Virus record (IMG/VR): IMGVR_UViG_3300027917_002462
Location: 1-22,219 of that record
Length of the DNA: 22,219 bases
Direction: 5' to 3' (one strand)
DNA from: a virus
A program made the translations under genes and the position numbers. Positions 3,396 through 21,857 of the stretch are shown piece by piece; the first letter of the stretch is position 1, and each line of letters starts with the position of its first letter. The notes beneath the pieces were generated by a model that was not told the DNA's origin, did no database searches, and worked only from the letters and a program-made list of their open reading frames with translations.

Positions 3396-3530
3396 TCAAT
3401 CACCCAACTTAGGAGCAGTGATAATGATAACTACAGCTACAACACCAAACACGACCCACACACTTGGTTCCATAACTGCCCATTTCAAGTCTTCTACTAT
3501 CTCCAACAGAGTTCTAATAGACACAGGCAT
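3396..3530 (-). CDS. Single-span membrane peptide, 44 aa
   Basis: This gene is shorter than usual ORF cut-offs. The ATG at 3530 follows TAGGAGTTACTC, a good ribosome binding site, and the stop is TGA. The peptide starts with a short amphipathic part (MPVSIRTLLEIVEDLKW) and has one hydrophobic segment at about residues 24-38 (SVWVVFGVVAVVIII), ending TAPKLGD. One membrane span with a tiny tail is predicted. No family is recognised. Its size and layout resemble the other small membrane peptide at 2066-2197, though the sequences differ. It lies between the hammerhead-containing part of the block and the coiled-coil gene. Confidence 0.6.
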   Translation of the reverse strand: MPVSIRTLLEIVEDLKWAVMEPSVWVVFGVVAVVIIITAPKLGD

Positions 3531-3544
3531 GAGTAACTCCTACT

Positions 3545-3688
3545 CTACTTAGTGAAACGTCTCCTCACCCTTTCCTCGTAGCCACTACGTGCGACAGCAC
3601 TCAAACAAGCTGCACGACAACGCATCAAAGTGCAACGACGATGCGGTGCAAAGGATATATACACCCGACGTCCCAAACTGTGTGACAT
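3545..3688 (-). CDS. Possible small basic Cys/Arg-rich peptide, 47 aa (doubtful)
   Basis: The open frame runs up to the TAG just before the ribosome binding site of the 44-aa membrane peptide gene, a spacing that fits the operon. Candidate starts are ATG at 3688 (47 aa), ATG at 3727 (60 aa, lying inside the hammerhead core CTGATGAGG) and GTG at 3754. None has a clear ribosome binding site. The product would be strongly basic (RRR, RCR, ERVRRR) with several cysteines. If it is not a gene, positions 3541-3716 are an untranslated spacer downstream of ribozyme copy 1. Confidence 0.25.
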   Translation of the reverse strand: MSHSLGRRVYISFAPHRRCTLMRCRAACLSAVARSGYEERVRRRFTK

Positions 3689-3719
3689 AGCGGAGTACGC
3701 TACCCCACAGAGACATACT

Positions 3720-3782
3720 GGCCTCATCAGTACAGGAACTATACCTGTAGACACCTAGGGATTGGACCTAGATGTTTCGGCC
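3720..3782 (-). ncRNA. Type II hammerhead ribozyme, copy 1
   Basis: Read on the minus strand, all hammerhead parts are present in the order GGCC-GAAA-stem III-GUC-stem I-CUGAUGA-GGCC. Stem III is CAUCUAGG/CCUAGGUG with loop UCCAAUC. The cleavage triplet GUC is at 3752-3750. Stem I is UACAGG/CCUGUA with loop UAUAGUU. The catalytic core CUGAUGA is at 3730-3724. Stem II is formed by GGCC at 3782-3779 with GGCC at 3723-3720 and is the open end, defining the type II topology. An ACU/AGU pairing (3793-3791 with 3719-3717) may extend stem II past a bulge. Cleavage is predicted after the C at 3750. It lies between the genes at 3797-4048 and 3545-3688 or 3396-3530. Confidence 0.88.
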
Positions 3783-3796
3783 TGAAACCTAGTTAC

Positions 3797-4048
3797 TTAT
3801 TCTGCAACTTGAATAAGTGCATAAATCCCATCATGGAGATAGATAGCAGTCCTCTGCTGTTTGTTCAGCCAACGATAACCTTTATTCAACCAAAGATAAA
3901 CATGACCAAAGGCGTCGGCGGTCTCATTATCTGCCCTCAGTCCAGAGAGAGCCTCTACTTCTTGTAGAGATAAATGATTGTGGATCATCTTTTCGATCAA
4001 TGGGTAGGTTCCATCGATCATGGCTCCGAATCCAAAGGCTCCGTGCAT
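3797..4048 (-). CDS. Hypothetical protein, 83 aa
   Basis: The product is not recognised. The ATG at 4048 follows AACAAGGAGTAAGCT, a strong ribosome binding site, itself only about 15 bases after the end of ribozyme copy 2. The stop is TAA. The sequence is probably soluble: a Gly-rich start (HGAFGFGAM), then helices with YPLIEKMIHNHLSL and a Trp/Tyr-rich repeat-like part (YLWLNKGYRWLNKQQR, where LWLNK and RWLNK echo each other). No membrane segment or metal motif is seen. It is flanked on both sides by hammerhead ribozymes, so its mRNA would be released as a separate piece with a ribozyme hairpin at each end. Confidence 0.7.
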   Translation of the reverse strand: MHGAFGFGAMIDGTYPLIEKMIHNHLSLQEVEALSGLRADNETADAFGHVYLWLNKGYRWLNKQQRTAIYLHDGIYALIQVAE

Positions 4049-4075
4049 AGCTTACTCCTTGTTGTTGAGACTACT

Positions 4076-4136
4076 GGCCTCATCAGTGCACGCAACACGT
4101 GCAGACGCACAGGGATTGGACCTGTACGTTTCGGCC
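4076..4136 (-). ncRNA. Type II hammerhead ribozyme, copy 2
   Basis: On the minus strand: GGCC (4136-4133), GAAA, stem III CGUACAGG/CCUGUGCG with loop UCCAAUC, cleavage triplet GUC (4106-4104), stem I UGCACG/CGUGCA with loop UGUUG, core CUGAUGA (4086-4080), and GGCC (4079-4076). Both stems are fully paired, counting one G-U in stem III. Cleavage is predicted after the C at 4104. The motif starts 6 bases after the stop codon of the 458-aa gene and ends about 15 bases before the ribosome binding site of the 83-aa gene, filling the intergenic gap almost completely. Confidence 0.92.
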
Positions 4137-4142
4137 TATTGG

Positions 4143-5519
4143 CTATCCGTGAGTGACAAGCCTCAGGTGGTCAAGCAACCTGGTCAGCTCCTTCTTCATG
4201 CGATCCTCACGCTGCAACGGGAAATCAATAGCCCAGTTATCGAAGTGGTCAGCATTAGCTTTCACCTCGTTATCCCAGGCCAGGCGATGCAGCCAGAGGT
4301 AGTACTGGATGGCAGAACGCTCTTCGTCAGTAGGCGGAATAGCTTGAATGACATCCCACTCAAACTGACGCCTAAGAGACGTAGGCTTCAGAGCCAGCCA
4401 GTATTGGTCACGACAATAATTGCAGAAGCCGAAGTAAATGTTCAGGCCATAGTGGTCATCTCGTGAGATCCACTTAGCTCCCAACCACTTGCTTCTCAGC
4501 TTTGCGATCATGTCTTTGAGACCTTGACGCATGAACAGGAACCAGGGGCTGTATGTTTCACCCTCTGCCGCGACAGTCTTTAGCCCAGCAGCCTGCTCCA
4601 ATTGCCAGGTAGCATACCGCTTGGCATAGTTAGAGACTCTGTCGATGCTCGAAGCTACTTTGCAGTATCCGGTCAAGTAGTCGGTCGCAATGTCCTTGTG
4701 TTCAGCAGCTTTTTCGACTGCTTTAGCAAGATGACGTTTGACCATCTTCTCGACCCAGGCTTCACGGTCAGGACCAAGGAAGATCTCAAGTGCATCAAAG
4801 TAGGCATCCCGTTGCGTTCCTGCGTAGGGCAGCCTTTCAGTAACAAGCGCACTGACCTTATTGATCATGTCCCAGTCGAAGCCGAGATCCCGCAGGTGGC
4901 GTTCATAGCCAATGAGAGCATCTTCATGCCACTCACTCCAGTCAGATGAGAGCCGGTTTTGACCAACACTCCACTCCCTGAGTTGGTAGGCACGCTGTAC
5001 CTGAAACACATCAGCTGTGTTCCAGCATCTGGATGTATGATTCGTCACCACGAGGGGCGTCATTTCATGCTCATCCAGATCAGCTATGGCAATGCGTGGC
5101 GAGATCTTGGCAGCTTCCGATGATGTCACTTCTTCAGCGATCACCACAGGATAGTCTGTCTTGACTTCGACAGCTCGCTTAAAGCTGACAGGCTCCAGCC
5201 TACCACTCTGCTTATTCAGCCTATGGCCCATCGTGTCGTAGATGTAGGTGTCCTCCAGCAACCTAGTGGGCACCATTGCCTGAGTCTCCTCGAAGATATT
5301 GAGGAGGGCACGACGCTCATTAGGTGTAGCCTTAGCGAACTTACCTTTGGCATCTACTACTCTGAGACCATTCGCCTGCTTCCGGATCATCAAACGCTCC
5401 TGCACGGGGCGCTTACGCTCGATGGGAAGAAACAGATGTCTGTCACTCCACATCTTGTCGATGACCAGGGTGCGAGTGGTGGTAGTTCCGGTCCATCCGG
5501 TCAGAGTGATAACCTGCAT
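4143..5519 (-). CDS. Hypothetical phage protein, 458 aa, Trp/Tyr-rich C-terminal half
   Basis: This is the largest gene of the minus-strand block. The ATG at 5519 follows GAAAGGGGTAACCA and the stop is TAG. No family is recognised. Residues 1-20 are Thr-rich (GTTTTRT). Residues 33-75 are basic. The rest is helical and unusually rich in Trp and Tyr, with a single CNYC motif at 366-369 that could bind metal only with partners elsewhere. No Walker motif, nuclease signature, signal peptide or membrane span is seen. A late acidic/aromatic part (YLWLHRLAWDNEVKANADHF) precedes a basic C-terminal helix. It is bounded by ribozyme copy 3 upstream and copy 2 immediately downstream, so its transcript would be excised as a monocistronic message. 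Confidence 0.8.
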   Translation of the reverse strand: MQVITLTGWTGTTTTRTLVIDKMWSDRHLFLPIERKRPVQERLMIRKQANGLRVVDAKGKFAKATPNERRALLNIFEETQAMVPTRLLEDTYIYDTMGHRLNKQSGRLEPVSFKRAVEVKTDYPVVIAEEVTSSEAAKISPRIAIADLDEHEMTPLVVTNHTSRCWNTADVFQVQRAYQLREWSVGQNRLSSDWSEWHEDALIGYERHLRDLGFDWDMINKVSALVTERLPYAGTQRDAYFDALEIFLGPDREAWVEKMVKRHLAKAVEKAAEHKDIATDYLTGYCKVASSIDRVSNYAKRYATWQLEQAAGLKTVAAEGETYSPWFLFMRQGLKDMIAKLRSKWLGAKWISRDDHYGLNIYFGFCNYCRDQYWLALKPTSLRRQFEWDVIQAIPPTDEERSAIQYYLWLHRLAWDNEVKANADHFDNWAIDFPLQREDRMKKELTRLLDHLRLVTHG

Positions 5520-5555: not shown

Positions 5556-5618
5556 GGCCTCATCAGTACGTGCAACACACGTAGACCCTGGGGAATTGGA
5601 CCCCATGCGGTTTCGGCC
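5556..5618 (-). ncRNA. Type II hammerhead ribozyme, copy 3
   Basis: On the minus strand: GGCC (5618-5615), GAAA, stem III, cleavage triplet GUC (5586-5584), stem I UACGUG/CACGUA with loop UGUUG, core CUGAUGA (5566-5560), and GGCC (5559-5556). Stem III is less regular than in the other copies: CC/GG next to the core, a small asymmetric internal loop, then UGGGG/CCCCA closing the loop UCCAAUU. Cleavage is predicted after the C at 5584. It lies in the leader of the 458-aa gene, with the start codon 37 bases downstream. Between it and the upstream gene is an 8-base hairpin (TGACACGG at 5627-5634 with CCGTGTTA at 5647-5654). Confidence 0.9.
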
Positions 5619-5626
5619 TAAACCAG

Positions 5627-5654
5627 TGACACGGTATTAGGTAGCCCCGTGTTA
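5627..5654 (-). other. Hairpin between the 88-aa gene and ribozyme copy 3
   Basis: TGACACGG and CCGTGTTA form an 8-base stem (one G-U) with a 12-base loop. The hairpin lies 20 bases beyond the stop codon at 5674 and 9 bases before ribozyme copy 3 in the minus direction. No U-run follows, so intrinsic termination is unlikely. A role as an insulating or stabilising stem for the 3' end left by ribozyme cleavage is possible. Confidence 0.4.
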
Positions 5655-5673
5655 TGGCCTGTAGTGCTATGCG

Positions 5674-5940
5674 TTACACTACGTAGTCGTACCCATCCCA
5701 ACCGTACTCATCCTCGACCTCATCCTCCAGGTCGTAGAGTCGTTGGGTGAGCCTGTCATGGAAGTCCATCTTGGCCTGCCTCCTCAGCCTAATGCCTCTG
5801 TAGGCAAGGATGGCATTGTAGTCACCAGCATCTACCGCAGGCTCTAGCTCAGCAAGCTGGGCATCGAGCTTCTCAATCGAGCGGTGAGTGATGGCGAGTA
5901 GGTCATGGACAGTCTCCCAGTCCAGTAGATGCATAGCCAT
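5674..5940 (-). CDS. Small helical protein, 88 aa, acidic C-terminus
   Basis: I choose the ATG at 5940, preceded by AAGGAGCACTA; an in-frame GTG at 6018 has no ribosome binding site. The product is mostly helical and charged (WETVHDLLAITHRSIEKLDA, then RLYDLEDEVEDEYGW), possibly a short coiled-coil hairpin. The acidic tail (about residues 73-85) ends in an aromatic GYDYVV. No family is recognised and no membrane segment is seen. It precedes the hairpin and ribozyme copy 3. Confidence 0.65.
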   Translation of the reverse strand: MAMHLLDWETVHDLLAITHRSIEKLDAQLAELEPAVDAGDYNAILAYRGIRLRRQAKMDFHDRLTQRLYDLEDEVEDEYGWDGYDYVV

Positions 5941-13180: not shown

Positions 13181-13929
13181 TGCCAACTCTGACATCATAT
13201 TTTGACAAAATGACTCCTGCTAGACAGGCTACTTGGTTGAGTGAGTTAGAGTGGTCTGGTGCAACAATGGGGTTTCATATTACTCCTGGCGAAGCATATA
13301 CAGAAGTAGGTCCTATGATGCCTGGAGCTAGACGTGCTAAGTTCTTTATGCCTGGTACAGCAGAATGGATGGGCTTAAGAACTGCTGGCAGAGGTATTAA
13401 AGAAGCTGCAGGACTTGGTGCTAAAGGCGCATGGGGTAAAGCTTTTGCAGTTGGAGGAAAGGGATTGGCTAAAGCTGCTGGTAAGGGCTTTGCTCCTGGA
13501 CTTGGGCTTTATTTTACTGGAACGGCTGCTCTTGAAGGCTATCGTCAGGGTGGTGTGACTGGAGCTATTAGTGGTGGCCTAAGAGAAGCAGCTATTAACT
13601 TGGCGTTGTTTGCTGGAATACGAGCGTTAGGACCGCATGGTGCTCTTGTTCTTGCAGGTGGTGCAGCTGTTGCTGGTGCAGGATTAGCTCTTGGTTATGG
13701 ATTTGCTAAGGGTGCTGAAGCGTCTTGGCAGTATCACATGCGCAACTTACCGCTTGAGACGACAGGGTCTTTGTCAGCCTTTAGTACTGGTGGTGCTGCT
13801 ACCATGAGACAAAGAAGCTTGATGAATATTCAGCGCAGTCATTTGAATGCACGTTCGGCGTTTGGCAATGAAGCACAGTACGCACACTTGGCAAGATATA
13901 GGGGTGTTGGTAGACGAGGCTTGATGTAA
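13180..13929 (+). CDS. Gly/Ala-rich putative membrane-interacting virion protein, 249 aa
   Basis: The ATG overlaps the upstream stop by one base (TAATG) after CAAAGGAG. The first 60 residues look soluble. Residues 66-105 are a Gly/Ala/Lys-rich amphipathic stretch. Residues about 104-175 contain two or three Gly/Ala-rich hydrophobic segments (including LVLAGGAAVAGAGLALGYGF at 156-175). The C-terminal part (207-249) is basic, with ATMRQRSLMNIQRSHLNARS, a segment that looks like a conserved tail rather than a linker. Such small-residue helices resemble glycine-zipper packing in oligomeric membrane proteins. A genome-delivery or internal-virion role is inferred from composition and position just before the terminase. 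Confidence 0.75.
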   Translation: MPTLTSYFDKMTPARQATWLSELEWSGATMGFHITPGEAYTEVGPMMPGARRAKFFMPGTAEWMGLRTAGRGIKEAAGLGAKGAWGKAFAVGGKGLAKAAGKGFAPGLGLYFTGTAALEGYRQGGVTGAISGGLREAAINLALFAGIRALGPHGALVLAGGAAVAGAGLALGYGFAKGAEASWQYHMRNLPLETTGSLSAFSTGGAATMRQRSLMNIQRSHLNARSAFGNEAQYAHLARYRGVGRRGLM

Positions 13930-16334
13930 TGCACGAGAAGATCAAAGATCTATATATGGAGAACGAGTATGGAATCCAATATTTGGATTACTATAAGAAA
14001 GCAGACTCACAGTTAGTCAAGTATTGTCAAGATACCTACAATATCAACACTAAATGTCATGGCATGTGTGTGAATTGCCAGATCGATCATATCAGTCGAT
14101 ATGGTGATACTAGTGATTGGGCAATCAAGGTAGAAAAGGCTTATGTTTATGAGCAGGAAGATTTACGTGAAGTTGTTGGTATGCTTAGGCGCTTCCAGAG
14201 AGTCAAGATACTGAAGCGTAAAGGTCGTTTGGTTCGTATTCAGGCAGTCATCAACTATGGTGTATGTACAAGAGACGAGGAGCATCCTCGTGTTTATAGA
14301 GAGCGTAAATCAGATATTAACCAGCTTCGATGTGAGATATGTGAATCTGCTATGTCTGCTCGTGTACATAAGATTGAAGGTTGGGTGCCTTTTGTTCATG
14401 TTACTGCGTTTAGTGTCAAGTGTGGTTTTGTTCCAAAGAGCTATGAAGATGAGATTCCTTCAACTGTAAGAAAGACACTTACCAAAGAGAAGCTTGAAGC
14501 TCTTCTTAGTCTTATTGATCCAGTTAAATGGGCTCGTGACTTTCTAGGTATTGAGTTGCGTGAGCATCAGAAAGTTGATGCTATGTGTACAGCTAAGCAC
14601 ACTGTACGAAGGTGGGGAAGACGATCAGGTAAAACCTATTCTGAATGCCAGAAGGTTCTTAGGTTTGCTCTGACAACACAAATCTCAGAAGGACATGATG
14701 CTAAAGGAAAGGAGATTAAGCGTGGTCCAGTAGTACTTGTTGTGTCGCCATACTTGGCTCAGATTACTTTGATTTTCGATATGATTCGCAAGATGGTCAA
14801 GAGAAATCCAGATATTCACATTCAGCGTGATATTAAGACGCCTTATCACTATCTGAAGTTTGCAGATACTGAAGACTGTGAAGGTGCAGTTATTATGGGT
14901 TTTACTGCAGGATCATCGTCTGGTGCAGAAGGTGGTACTGTTCGTGGTCAAGGCGCTGACATGATGTTAGTAGATGAGGCTGATGATATGCCAGAAGCTG
15001 ATCTACTGGATGCTGTCGAGCCTATCCAGATTACAACACCCAACGTAATGATGATGGCTTCATCTACTCCAAAGGGTAAGCGCGAATGGTTCTGGAAGGT
15101 TTGTACTGAATCACCTCATTATAAGGAAACATACTTTCCTGCCACAGTACTAGACCACTGGGATGAAGTTAAGGACGAAGTTGAGCGCAAGGGTGTTACT
15201 GGCGTGCACTTCTTGCAAGAGTATATGGCACAGTTTGCTATTCAGATTGAGGGTGTTTATCAAGCGAACTATGTCACTGATGCAGAAGTTGATTACGAAT
15301 ATGGACAATCGCATAAGATATTGTGGAATCAAGAGACTTTTGGGGTAGATGCACCAGAGTCTGGATGGACTTACTCGATAGGCGTGGACTGGAATACTAA
15401 CGCTGGTGTTGAGCTTGTTATTGTAGGATTGCCTCCTAATAATATTGAGTTTTGGGTGGTAGATGCCGTTAACATACCAAAACACGAGTATCAGCAGCAT
15501 ATTGCTATGGAAAAGCTTATTGAGCTGAATCGTTACTGGAATCCATCTTTCATCTATGTAGATAGAGGTTATGGTGGCACACAGCTTGAGCATCTACAGA
15601 TCTTTTCTGATCGTGCTCGTATGCGTGAGCCAGGTTCTGCTGATGCTAAACTGAAGGACATTCTTACGGCTTATGACTTTGGTAAGAAGATTGCATATCG
15701 TAATCCTGCTACTGGTTTACAAGAAGAGACTCAAGCTAAGCCATTCTTGATTGAGAACTCTATTAGACAGTTTGAGCAAGGGCGTATTCGTTTCTCTAAG
15801 CATGACCATATCTTGCATCAACAGCTGCATAACTACATTATTGCTGGTGTAAGTCCACAGGGCGTGCCTCGTTACGGAATGAATGATAAGAAGATTGGAG
15901 ATCATAGGCTTGATGCTCTTAATCTTGCGCTAATTGGATACATTCTTGAGATGTCTGAATGGGCCACTGATGTAGGTGAAGTGGCAAATATATTGCATGC
16001 TTCTAGTTTTGGTTCACAAGAGGTTAGAAAGCTGGTAGCAGAGAACGAGCGTAATTGGATCGAATTTGTGCGTGGTGTTCCAAGAGGTATAGGTTTACCA
16101 GGTCATCTTAAAGTTAGATATGACCCTGGTTATGTTGAAATGAAAGAAACACAACGCCAGACATCTTCTGAGCATAGTCGTACTGCTGAGATAGATAATG
16201 CTGGTCGTCAAGATACTAATACATTGCGTATAGGTTTCAGCTCAGATACTGAATGGAAGTATGATGGTACTAAGAAGCCAACATCACGAGTAGCCCATAT
16301 TCATAGTCGCAAACCCAAACGAAGGACATTCTGA
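13929..16334 (+). CDS. terL: Terminase large subunit (ATPase and nuclease), 801 aa
   Basis: This is the DNA-packaging motor. The ATG overlaps the upstream stop by one base. The ATPase has Walker A GRRSGKT (230-236), Walker B MMLVDEAD with D349/E350, and the coupling motif SST at 378-380 in a TPNVMMMASSTPKGK context. The RNase H-fold nuclease follows: GVDWN (D487), YVDRGYGG (D545) and GDHRLDA (D658, D662). An extra N-terminal region of about 200 residues precedes the ATPase and carries two cysteine clusters, CHGMCVNC (C43, C47, C50) and C113 with CEIC (C135, C138), likely zinc-binding. The C-terminal 125 residues after the nuclease are basic and less ordered. At 801 residues it is clearly longer than typical large terminases (roughly 450-650). 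Confidence 0.97.
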   Translation: MHEKIKDLYMENEYGIQYLDYYKKADSQLVKYCQDTYNINTKCHGMCVNCQIDHISRYGDTSDWAIKVEKAYVYEQEDLREVVGMLRRFQRVKILKRKGRLVRIQAVINYGVCTRDEEHPRVYRERKSDINQLRCEICESAMSARVHKIEGWVPFVHVTAFSVKCGFVPKSYEDEIPSTVRKTLTKEKLEALLSLIDPVKWARDFLGIELREHQKVDAMCTAKHTVRRWGRRSGKTYSECQKVLRFALTTQISEGHDAKGKEIKRGPVVLVVSPYLAQITLIFDMIRKMVKRNPDIHIQRDIKTPYHYLKFADTEDCEGAVIMGFTAGSSSGAEGGTVRGQGADMMLVDEADDMPEADLLDAVEPIQITTPNVMMMASSTPKGKREWFWKVCTESPHYKETYFPATVLDHWDEVKDEVERKGVTGVHFLQEYMAQFAIQIEGVYQANYVTDAEVDYEYGQSHKILWNQETFGVDAPESGWTYSIGVDWNTNAGVELVIVGLPPNNIEFWVVDAVNIPKHEYQQHIAMEKLIELNRYWNPSFIYVDRGYGGTQLEHLQIFSDRARMREPGSADAKLKDILTAYDFGKKIAYRNPATGLQEETQAKPFLIENSIRQFEQGRIRFSKHDHILHQQLHNYIIAGVSPQGVPRYGMNDKKIGDHRLDALNLALIGYILEMSEWATDVGEVANILHASSFGSQEVRKLVAENERNWIEFVRGVPRGIGLPGHLKVRYDPGYVEMKETQRQTSSEHSRTAEIDNAGRQDTNTLRIGFSSDTEWKYDGTKKPTSRVAHIHSRKPKRRTF

Positions 16335-19739: not shown

Positions 19740-21857
19740 ATGACAATTGCAGTCAATAGATTTACGGTAGAAGATCGTATTAAGCCACGATCGCCACTTT
19801 CTGTCAAGCAGGTGAACTCTCCTGTACTGGGATACAAACAAACTAATTCTCGTACGACATTTGAGCCACCTGAATATGACCTGTCTGAGTTTAACACAAT
19901 TGAGGATGTCGAAGCCTATGTTAGACAGACTCATCGTAAGAAGATCGGACTTGGGTTTAAGGAAGGCTGGGATCTTGTAGGCAAGAATATCGATACGCTT
20001 AGCTATATTAAGAAGCGTTTTGCTCAATTAGAGCATGCACAAGGTAAGCCTTGGCGTCTTTTGATGAAAGAGATTTTCTATGACTTGGTCAAGCATTCGA
20101 ATGCTTATCTAGTCAAGGTTAGAAATGCGGATGTATCTGGTGGGTTTACACGAACTGCCAATGGCAAGAGTATTGATCCTATAGCGGCTTACTTTATTAT
20201 GGCTCCAGAAACAGTACAGATTGCTAAAGACAACTCTGGGAAGATTCTTAAAGTACGTCAGTCGATGCCGGATGGTCGTACGAAGACACATGCACCTGAT
20301 TTGGTAGTGCATTTCTATCTTGATAAGAAGACTGGCTTCTCTACAGGTACACCTATCCTTACGCCAGTGAAGGACGATATTCGTACTCTAAGACGTATCG
20401 AAGAGAACATAGAGCTGCTTGTATATCAGAATCTGTTTCCGTTATTCCAGTACAAGGTAGGTACAGAGAAGTCACCAGCTAAGACTTATCCAGATGGCCA
20501 AACTGAAATAGACATCGTACATAATAAGCTTGAGTTCATGCCTCCTGAAGGTGTCCTTGTTACGCCAGAGCGACATGAAATCTCAATGATTGGTTCTGAG
20601 GGACGTGCTTTAAGAGCAGAGGGTTATCTCAAGCACTTTAAAGAACGTGTGATGGCTGGTCTGGGTACTAGTAGCGTTGACATGGGTGAGGGTGGCACTA
20701 GTAATCGTAATACTGCTGATAGGCTGTCAGATAACTTGCGAGACGATGTAAAGTCTATTCAGGATGATTTTGAAGCTCAGTTTGATTTCTTTATCATTAG
20801 AGAGCTACTATTAGAAGGCAAGTTTGGTGCTGACGTACTTGATCCAGAAAATACAGTGCATCTTAGCTTCCGTGAGATTGATACTGATCGTCAGATTGCC
20901 AAAGAAAATCATGTGGCACAAATGTACACACAGCATATTTTCTCAGAGGACGAGGCTCGTATCAAGATAGGCTACGATCCTATTCCACTAGACGATCAAG
21001 AAGTCAGGGAGAAGATGTATTGGAGTATGATTGAGCAACCTAGCTTGCTTATCAGATCTATCGATGAATCATCTGGCCTGTCTGCTGCTACTGACAACCC
21101 TCAGGTTGCTGTGGAGAAAACCAATGCACGTGAGGGTGAAGAGAGAACTAAACGTATTGGTGCGGCCAGCAAACCACAGCCTCAGCAAGCTGCCAAGAAG
21201 AATAGTGGTCAGAGAGCTGGAGCAAGTAGGGATCAGCCTAGTAACCAATATGGCACTAGAACTGGTCCTAAGACGCGAAGAGATTTTGTAGATACTGAAT
21301 TACTTTCACATGTAGAACAGTTACTACATGATGTTTCAATCTATCTACAGTCAGATGCAAGTAAGTCATGGGTCAAAGGCGTAATCAAGGCCTGGACCGA
21401 ACAGACAAACAAGAGGCAATCAAGACTAGCAAGAGGTGCTTTTGTAGCTGGCGTTCGTAGCGTTGGCCTCAATCCATATTTCTATAATTTAGCATCACAG
21501 GTTCGAACTGTTGAAGATCATTCATCACGTTATGTACGTAAGTTGGCTCGTAATCTAGAGGATAGGTTTCAGAGATTGACAGGTGAAGAAGATGTTTCAA
21601 CCATGATGTCGATTATGGATATTACTGTTAATCGTGTAAATGCTATCAATGAAACAGAACAGCAAAGAGCGTATAATTATGGTAGATTAGTAGCGTTCAG
21701 GTTGACCGGTGATAAAGTCAAATATACATCTCATGCTGGCGCCTGCGAGGAGTGTATGATAACAACAAGACAGGATAATCTTGATCCAAGAAAGTTGTCT
21801 ATTGATGACATTCCTCCTGTGCATCCGTACTGTAGTTGTTCTGTAGACAAGGAATAA
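19740..21857 (+). CDS. Portal protein with C-terminal MuF-like head-morphogenesis domain, 705 aa
   Basis: The portal is the dodecameric ring at the head vertex through which DNA enters and leaves. The ATG follows AGGTCTATAG. Residues about 40-440 show the portal pattern: PWRLLMKEIFYDLVKHSNAY, IAAYFIMAPETVQI, then GFSTGTPILTPVKDDIRTLR leading into the long clip/stem helices, and a FREID strand. A low-complexity linker (455-515, rich in Ala, Gln, Lys and Arg) joins a helical C-terminal region (515-705). This ends in YTSHAGACEECM (C669, C672) and IPPVHPYCSCS (H695, C698, C700), the typical end of MuF/SPP1 gp7-type head-morphogenesis proteins. Those are normally a separate gene just downstream of the portal, so this looks like a fusion. 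Confidence 0.9.
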   Translation: MTIAVNRFTVEDRIKPRSPLSVKQVNSPVLGYKQTNSRTTFEPPEYDLSEFNTIEDVEAYVRQTHRKKIGLGFKEGWDLVGKNIDTLSYIKKRFAQLEHAQGKPWRLLMKEIFYDLVKHSNAYLVKVRNADVSGGFTRTANGKSIDPIAAYFIMAPETVQIAKDNSGKILKVRQSMPDGRTKTHAPDLVVHFYLDKKTGFSTGTPILTPVKDDIRTLRRIEENIELLVYQNLFPLFQYKVGTEKSPAKTYPDGQTEIDIVHNKLEFMPPEGVLVTPERHEISMIGSEGRALRAEGYLKHFKERVMAGLGTSSVDMGEGGTSNRNTADRLSDNLRDDVKSIQDDFEAQFDFFIIRELLLEGKFGADVLDPENTVHLSFREIDTDRQIAKENHVAQMYTQHIFSEDEARIKIGYDPIPLDDQEVREKMYWSMIEQPSLLIRSIDESSGLSAATDNPQVAVEKTNAREGEERTKRIGAASKPQPQQAAKKNSGQRAGASRDQPSNQYGTRTGPKTRRDFVDTELLSHVEQLLHDVSIYLQSDASKSWVKGVIKAWTEQTNKRQSRLARGAFVAGVRSVGLNPYFYNLASQVRTVEDHSSRYVRKLARNLEDRFQRLTGEEDVSTMMSIMDITVNRVNAINETEQQRAYNYGRLVAFRLTGDKVKYTSHAGACEECMITTRQDNLDPRKLSIDDIPPVHPYCSCSVDKE

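Follow-up and report, generated by a model that had tools for sequence, protein, structure and literature searches.

Type II hammerhead ribozymes fitted between genes of a tailed phage and their probable role in separating messages

Three elements located between consecutive minus-strand genes in a fragment of a tailed phage genome are, almost beyond doubt, type II hammerhead ribozymes by sequence and fold. As judged from the sequence, these hammerheads very probably cleave, and their role is likely to be the separation of messages, by cutting polycistronic minus-strand RNA in cis, once in each gap. The main idea is not new because Perreault et al. (2011) already described type II hammerheads clustered around single genes in prophages and proposed that these give rise to single-gene mRNAs (PMC3088659); the question of why phages carry self-cleaving ribozymes has stood since that report. 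The survey of relatives described here portrays an element that is fitted between a stop codon and a ribosome-binding site and tracks gene boundaries, not particular genes, and for the fragment analyzed, the exact RNA ends can be predicted.

Genes and ribozymes in the window

The window, that is, the whole stretch of DNA that was analyzed, is the 22,219-base IMG/VR virus record IMGVR_UViG_3300027917_002462, a fragment of a tailed phage genome. The first 6.3 kb carries, on the minus strand, small genes none of which matches a family, and the hammerheads are found among these. The bit scores and E-values below are from R1, a covariance model for which 70 other hammerheads, all from outside the window, were used.

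3396-3530, minus strand: 44-aa gene, separated by a 189-nt leader from copy 1 upstream of it (coding score and Shine-Dalgarno)
3720-3782, minus strand, to 3783 with the preceding base: copy 1, type II hammerhead ribozyme (R1 56.2 bits, E 6.2e-15; fold z -2.8)
3797-4048, minus strand: 83-aa gene, between copies 2 and 1 (ORF)
4055-4060, minus strand: AAGGAG, the Shine-Dalgarno sequence for the 83-aa gene, lying 15 nt beyond copy 2 (read directly)
4076-4136, minus strand, to 4137 with the conserved 5' A: copy 2, type II hammerhead ribozyme (R1 61.6 bits, E 1.5e-16; fold z -3.8)
4143-5519, minus strand: 458-aa gene, between copies 3 and 2 (ORF)
5556-5618, minus strand, to 5619 with the preceding base: copy 3, type II hammerhead ribozyme, stem III bulged (R1 52.5 bits, E 8.3e-14; fold z -1.5)
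5674-5940, minus strand: 88-aa gene, upstream of copy 3 (ORF and coding score; alternative 114-aa reading from 6018)
13929-16334, plus strand: terminase large subunit (family match)
19740-21857, plus strand: portal (family match)

The 458-aa protein has no match in Pfam, PHROG, NCBIfam or phage proteins, and the 83-aa protein matches no family above the curated cut-offs. Neither the 458-aa protein nor the terminase has relatives in IMG/VR. Among cultured phages, there is no DNA match to the window array or to two large relative arrays, and no protein match to the 458-aa gene, and the terminase shows distant matches only. A consensus-terminator search detects no terminator-like sites between the genes on the minus strand; along with the shared strand, this absence, a weak indication, is consistent with the genes and ribozymes being carried on a single minus-strand transcript.

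The three copies share the form A-GGCC-GAA-[stem III]-UC^-[stem I]-CUGAUGA-GGCC, in which the open stem II identifies type II. Copy 2, read on the minus strand from 4137 down to 4076, is A-GGCC-GAAACGTACAGGTCCAATCCCTGTGCGTC^TGCACGTGTTGCGTGCA-CTGATGA-GGCC. The catalytic core (GAAA, CUGANGA, the A15.1-U16.1 pair and H17 at the cut site, here C17) conforms to the consensus in all three copies, and both the folds and the model alignments show stems I and III closed by loops and stem II open, an arrangement that is supported by covariation in the relatives. The predicted cuts are at 5584/5583 in copy 3, 4104/4103 in copy 2 and 3750/3749 in copy 1.

The minimum free energy fold of each of the three minimal sequences is the hammerhead, which is retained in copy 3 with its bulged stem III. 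In a longer sequence context, the minimum free energy fold trades the 4-bp stem II for local pairings; energy-based folding is known to handle poorly those hammerheads that rely on tertiary contacts. The stems have diverged with pairing preserved: between copies 1 and 2, pairs 3, 5 and 6 of stem III are substituted on both sides, as are pairs 2, 4 and 5 of stem I among the three copies; stem II is GGCC/GGCC throughout. In copies 2 and 3, the loop UGUUG could pair with CAACA located 10-16 nt downstream. Two further structures lie next to the ribozymes. A strong hairpin (3661-3719, minus strand; -20.6 kcal/mol, z -1.95) is present in the leader that separates copy 1 from the 44-aa gene, and the segment between the 88-aa stop and copy 3 (5619-5680, minus strand) contains two hairpins that are no stronger than those of shuffled sequence (z -0.93).

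R1 detects no fourth hammerhead in the window, even at E-values up to 1 with the filters off, and the window contains no type I or type III hammerheads. The Rfam model RF02276 reports copy 2 alone, with 25.9 bits, below the gathering score of 37; copies 1 and 3 go unreported at E-values up to 1. In relatives, too, the RF02276 cut-off misses most of the subgroup, recovering 7 of at least 44 hammerheads in 20 loci; this cut-off is a setting of the database and does not define what a hammerhead is.

The GGCC of copy 2 starts 6 nt after the TAG stop codon (4143) of the 458-aa gene, and its other end is followed, 15 nt on, by AAGGAG (4060-4055) and by the start of the 83-aa gene at 4048. The sequence-only reading had placed a minus-strand ribozyme at 4076-4142, at these same distances from the stop codon and the Shine-Dalgarno sequence; the coordinates and the R1 score agree with it, this segment being the copy 2 ribozyme plus the 6-nt spacer. 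That reading also had copies 3 and 1 in equivalent gaps on either side. Both copies are there, but their gaps are looser: copy 1 is separated by 14 nt from the 83-aa stop and by 189 nt from the start that follows (3530), and for copy 3 the corresponding distances are 55 nt, from the 88-aa stop, and 36 nt, to the start of the 458-aa gene.

Conserved core and variable stems in relatives

Relatives were collected from viral contigs and one bacterial/archaeal genome set by core-pattern scans that did not require pairing in stems I and III, and the counts pertain to the matches listed. In the first scan, good stems were immediately apparent in 48 of 53 stretches, and the remaining five are all scored by the covariance model. 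Across ∼3.5 Mb, a descriptor returns 562 matches, compared with 1 in the reversed sequence, and a second descriptor, in which stem II was not required, returns 553 compared with 0, with stem II fully complementary in 530. In alignment set A1, 97.5% of the cells are paired and 15 of the 17 pairs show compensatory change, and in set A3, 98% of the cells are paired; this support is not fully independent of the selection of the sequences because the finder required stems I and III.

Among the 473 sampled hammerheads, stem I is 6 bp in 434 and loop I is 5 nt in 387, with the five-base loop carrying U at its first position (99%), A at the third (76%) and G at the final one (83%). The seeds were selected for a 4-bp stem II, so that these features characterize the sampled subgroup and not type II hammerheads in general. 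A pseudoknot between loop I and the tail is not enriched in the relatives (134 with at least 3 bp, compared with 125 ± 9 with permuted tails), and the covariation between loop I and the flanks is weak and confounded by relatedness.

The catalytic core is intact in 142 of the 147 model matches (array loci), and the stem sequences vary freely, with compensation. This pattern bears on the proposal that the element is mainly a short homologous DNA block that serves as a border for the exchange of single genes, with RNA cutting being incidental. Homology indeed often breaks at the ribozyme, with 73 locus pairs sharing the ribozyme and the downstream flank only, and 107 the ribozyme and the upstream flank only. 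However, a constant core with variable, compensated stems is the reverse of the pattern that a DNA homology block would require, and a single gene slot is filled by two differently permuted ribozyme types, so that this explanation appears quite improbable.

The slot in question is located upstream of an orthologous 255-aa gene (the orthologs of L044, at loci L404-L450) and holds a type II hammerhead in seven cases and a type I hammerhead in two. In several phages, the same slot contains a promoter-like sequence, and in many, neither a ribozyme nor anything promoter-like. The occupation of one slot by two permutations points to cutting itself as the selected property, and the many L044 orthologs that lack a ribozyme indicate that the element is optional. 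Type I hammerheads occur in gene gaps of the type II kind, sometimes in mixed arrays (L440:1418-1471, the equivalent position in L443, L127, L135, L149, L156, L275 and L379).

Placement between genes

Placement was analyzed for 508 non-redundant copies among the matches listed, using genes from a simple home-made caller, the starts of which are approximate and the stops firm. Of these copies, 25 overlap a called gene, and in 409 of the 460 copies with both neighbors called, both neighboring genes are on the strand of the ribozyme. The median distance is 1 nt from the stop codon to the ribozyme and 26 nt from the ribozyme to the next start, so that copies 1 and 3 of the window are more loosely spaced than most relatives. 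For gaps shorter than 200 nt, the stop codon is at most 3 nt away in 262 of 351 cases, compared with 61 expected under random placement and 151 when 15 nt are reserved for the ribosome-binding site. In 138 of 428 copies, the distance is -1, the G of UAG being the first base of stem II; the A that precedes stem II is conserved in 502 of the 508 copies, which partly explains the merging of stop codons into the ribozyme edge. No paper describing this stop-codon-abutting placement was found in the open literature, the subscription journals being mostly outside the search, so that the evidence of novelty is weak.

In most relatives, the stop codon touches or runs into stem II. A ribosome that finishes translating the upstream gene would therefore sit over stem II and GAAA and might keep the ribozyme unfolded. 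Translation would then gate the cut, with messages that hold a terminating ribosome spared and emptied ones cut. In the window, copy 2, at 6 nt, is the only copy close enough, and we regard such gating as an unlikely, though not negligible, refinement.

At the other end of the element, the 15 nt between copy 2 and the Shine-Dalgarno sequence could be taken to suggest a regulated switch, in which a signal controls the translation or stability of the next gene and cutting is not constitutive; Perreault et al. have proposed that some phage hammerheads may be regulated (PMC3088659). However, the predicted openness of the ribosome-binding site barely shifts on cleavage (from a mean of 0.58 to 0.61 in 200 relatives; mean change 0.02) and does not rise in the three copies of the window, and the predominant 5-nt loop I leaves no room for an aptamer. 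A switch is therefore, in our estimate, the least probable of the alternatives considered.

The copies at a locus are nearly always on one strand, and the largest array comprises 11 copies in ∼5 kb of a 67-kb contig. In contig G007 (that of locus L306), a minus-strand hammerhead (36973-37046) lies upstream of a plus-strand array (38936-42551), as if across a divergent promoter. The genes downstream of ribozymes are mostly of unknown or non-structural function (DUF932, AAA, SprT-like).

Exactly one gene lies in 111 of the 191 intervals between copies, and this tendency of the arrays to enclose single genes would also fit the formation of circular messages. Under this explanation, two cuts would free a gene, the ends of which would re-form a hammerhead via stem II, with the stem I half coming from the upstream copy and the stem III half from the downstream copy, and would be ligated, as in retrozymes. 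In the window, where stem II is the same in all copies, gene-spanning pairing is possible, but for the same reason the window is uninformative as to whether such complementarity is maintained. In relatives, the cross-gene complementarity expected of a retrozyme-like unit is not kept: among 99 pairs of neighboring copies with differing stems II, stem II is fully paired within both copies in 77 but across the gene in only 23. Furthermore, many of the surveyed loci have a single copy, and Perreault et al. sought circular or spliced products and found none (PMC3088659). The pattern of sequence variation thus points to cutting in cis over the formation of circles, which, including the proposed division of the ribozyme between two copies, we consider improbable.

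Predicted processing of the messages

Under the message-separation model, each cut would fall past a stop codon and ahead of the next Shine-Dalgarno sequence. The upstream mRNA would keep its stop codon and finish with the stem III hairpin, carrying a terminal 2',3'-cyclic phosphate, and the downstream mRNA would have a 5'-OH and open with the stem I hairpin. The expected outcome is single-gene messages, of ∼1480 nt for the 458-aa gene and 354 nt for the 83-aa gene, each of which would decay and be translated separately, so that the ribozymes would act like a natural counterpart of engineered ribozyme insulators.

Joint transcription of the genes, cutting during infection and independent fates of the resulting mRNAs are inferred. 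Hammerhead arrays similar to that in the window cleave in vitro and in E. coli, although 4 of 18 consensus hammerheads were inactive, and in haloviruses HF1 and HF2, a transcript 5' end maps within 3 nt of the hammerhead cut site (PMC3088659). Together with the placement and core conservation in relatives, the published cleavage of similar arrays (PMC3088659) lends good support to the notion of a probable cutter between genes put forward in the sequence-only reading. The two ends foreseen there, a stem III hairpin finishing the upstream product and a stem I hairpin opening the downstream one, are also what the present models predict. Three further proposals of that reading reach past what the sequence supports: the designation of the genes as early, differing stabilities of the pieces, and structured ends as the purpose of the element. 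The last of these is harder to maintain, given that sites of this kind are also occupied by type I hammerheads, the downstream product of which would lack a 5' hairpin.

Comparison with known systems

The closest counterparts are the prophage arrays, in which type II (and also type I and III) hammerheads lie on the coding strand and flank single genes or short blocks (PMC3088659). The window presents the same arrangement, with three minus-strand copies around the minus-strand 458-aa and 83-aa genes. It differs in that the collections searched contain no close relative of the phage and that the loop I-tail pseudoknot, common in published type II hammerheads although not defining, is unenriched in the subgroup to which the window belongs; the stop-codon-abutting placement is quantified in the present analysis. 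The Rfam family RF02276 (Hammerhead_II) has the same circular permutation and catalytic core, and copy 2 aligns across the full model, whereas the group represented in the window has a 4-bp stem II and a 6-bp stem I with a pentaloop.

Other systems resemble the window arrays in part. The HHphage hammerhead of HF1 and HF2 likewise closely precedes a start codon within a viral operon, but it has a variant core and is present in one copy, before the first gene of the transcript (PMC3088659). RiboJ, also a self-cleaving ribozyme, is located in the 5' leader, where it uncouples the gene from the sequence that precedes it and increases expression in E. coli; in contrast to the phage elements, it is engineered and placed behind a promoter, not between the genes of an operon (PMC6206723). 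The Theta ribozymes of gut phages are another case of a small self-cleaving ribozyme employed as a phage RNA-processing element, with an HDV-like fold and a location at tRNA 3' ends instead of between protein-coding genes (PMC10879173).
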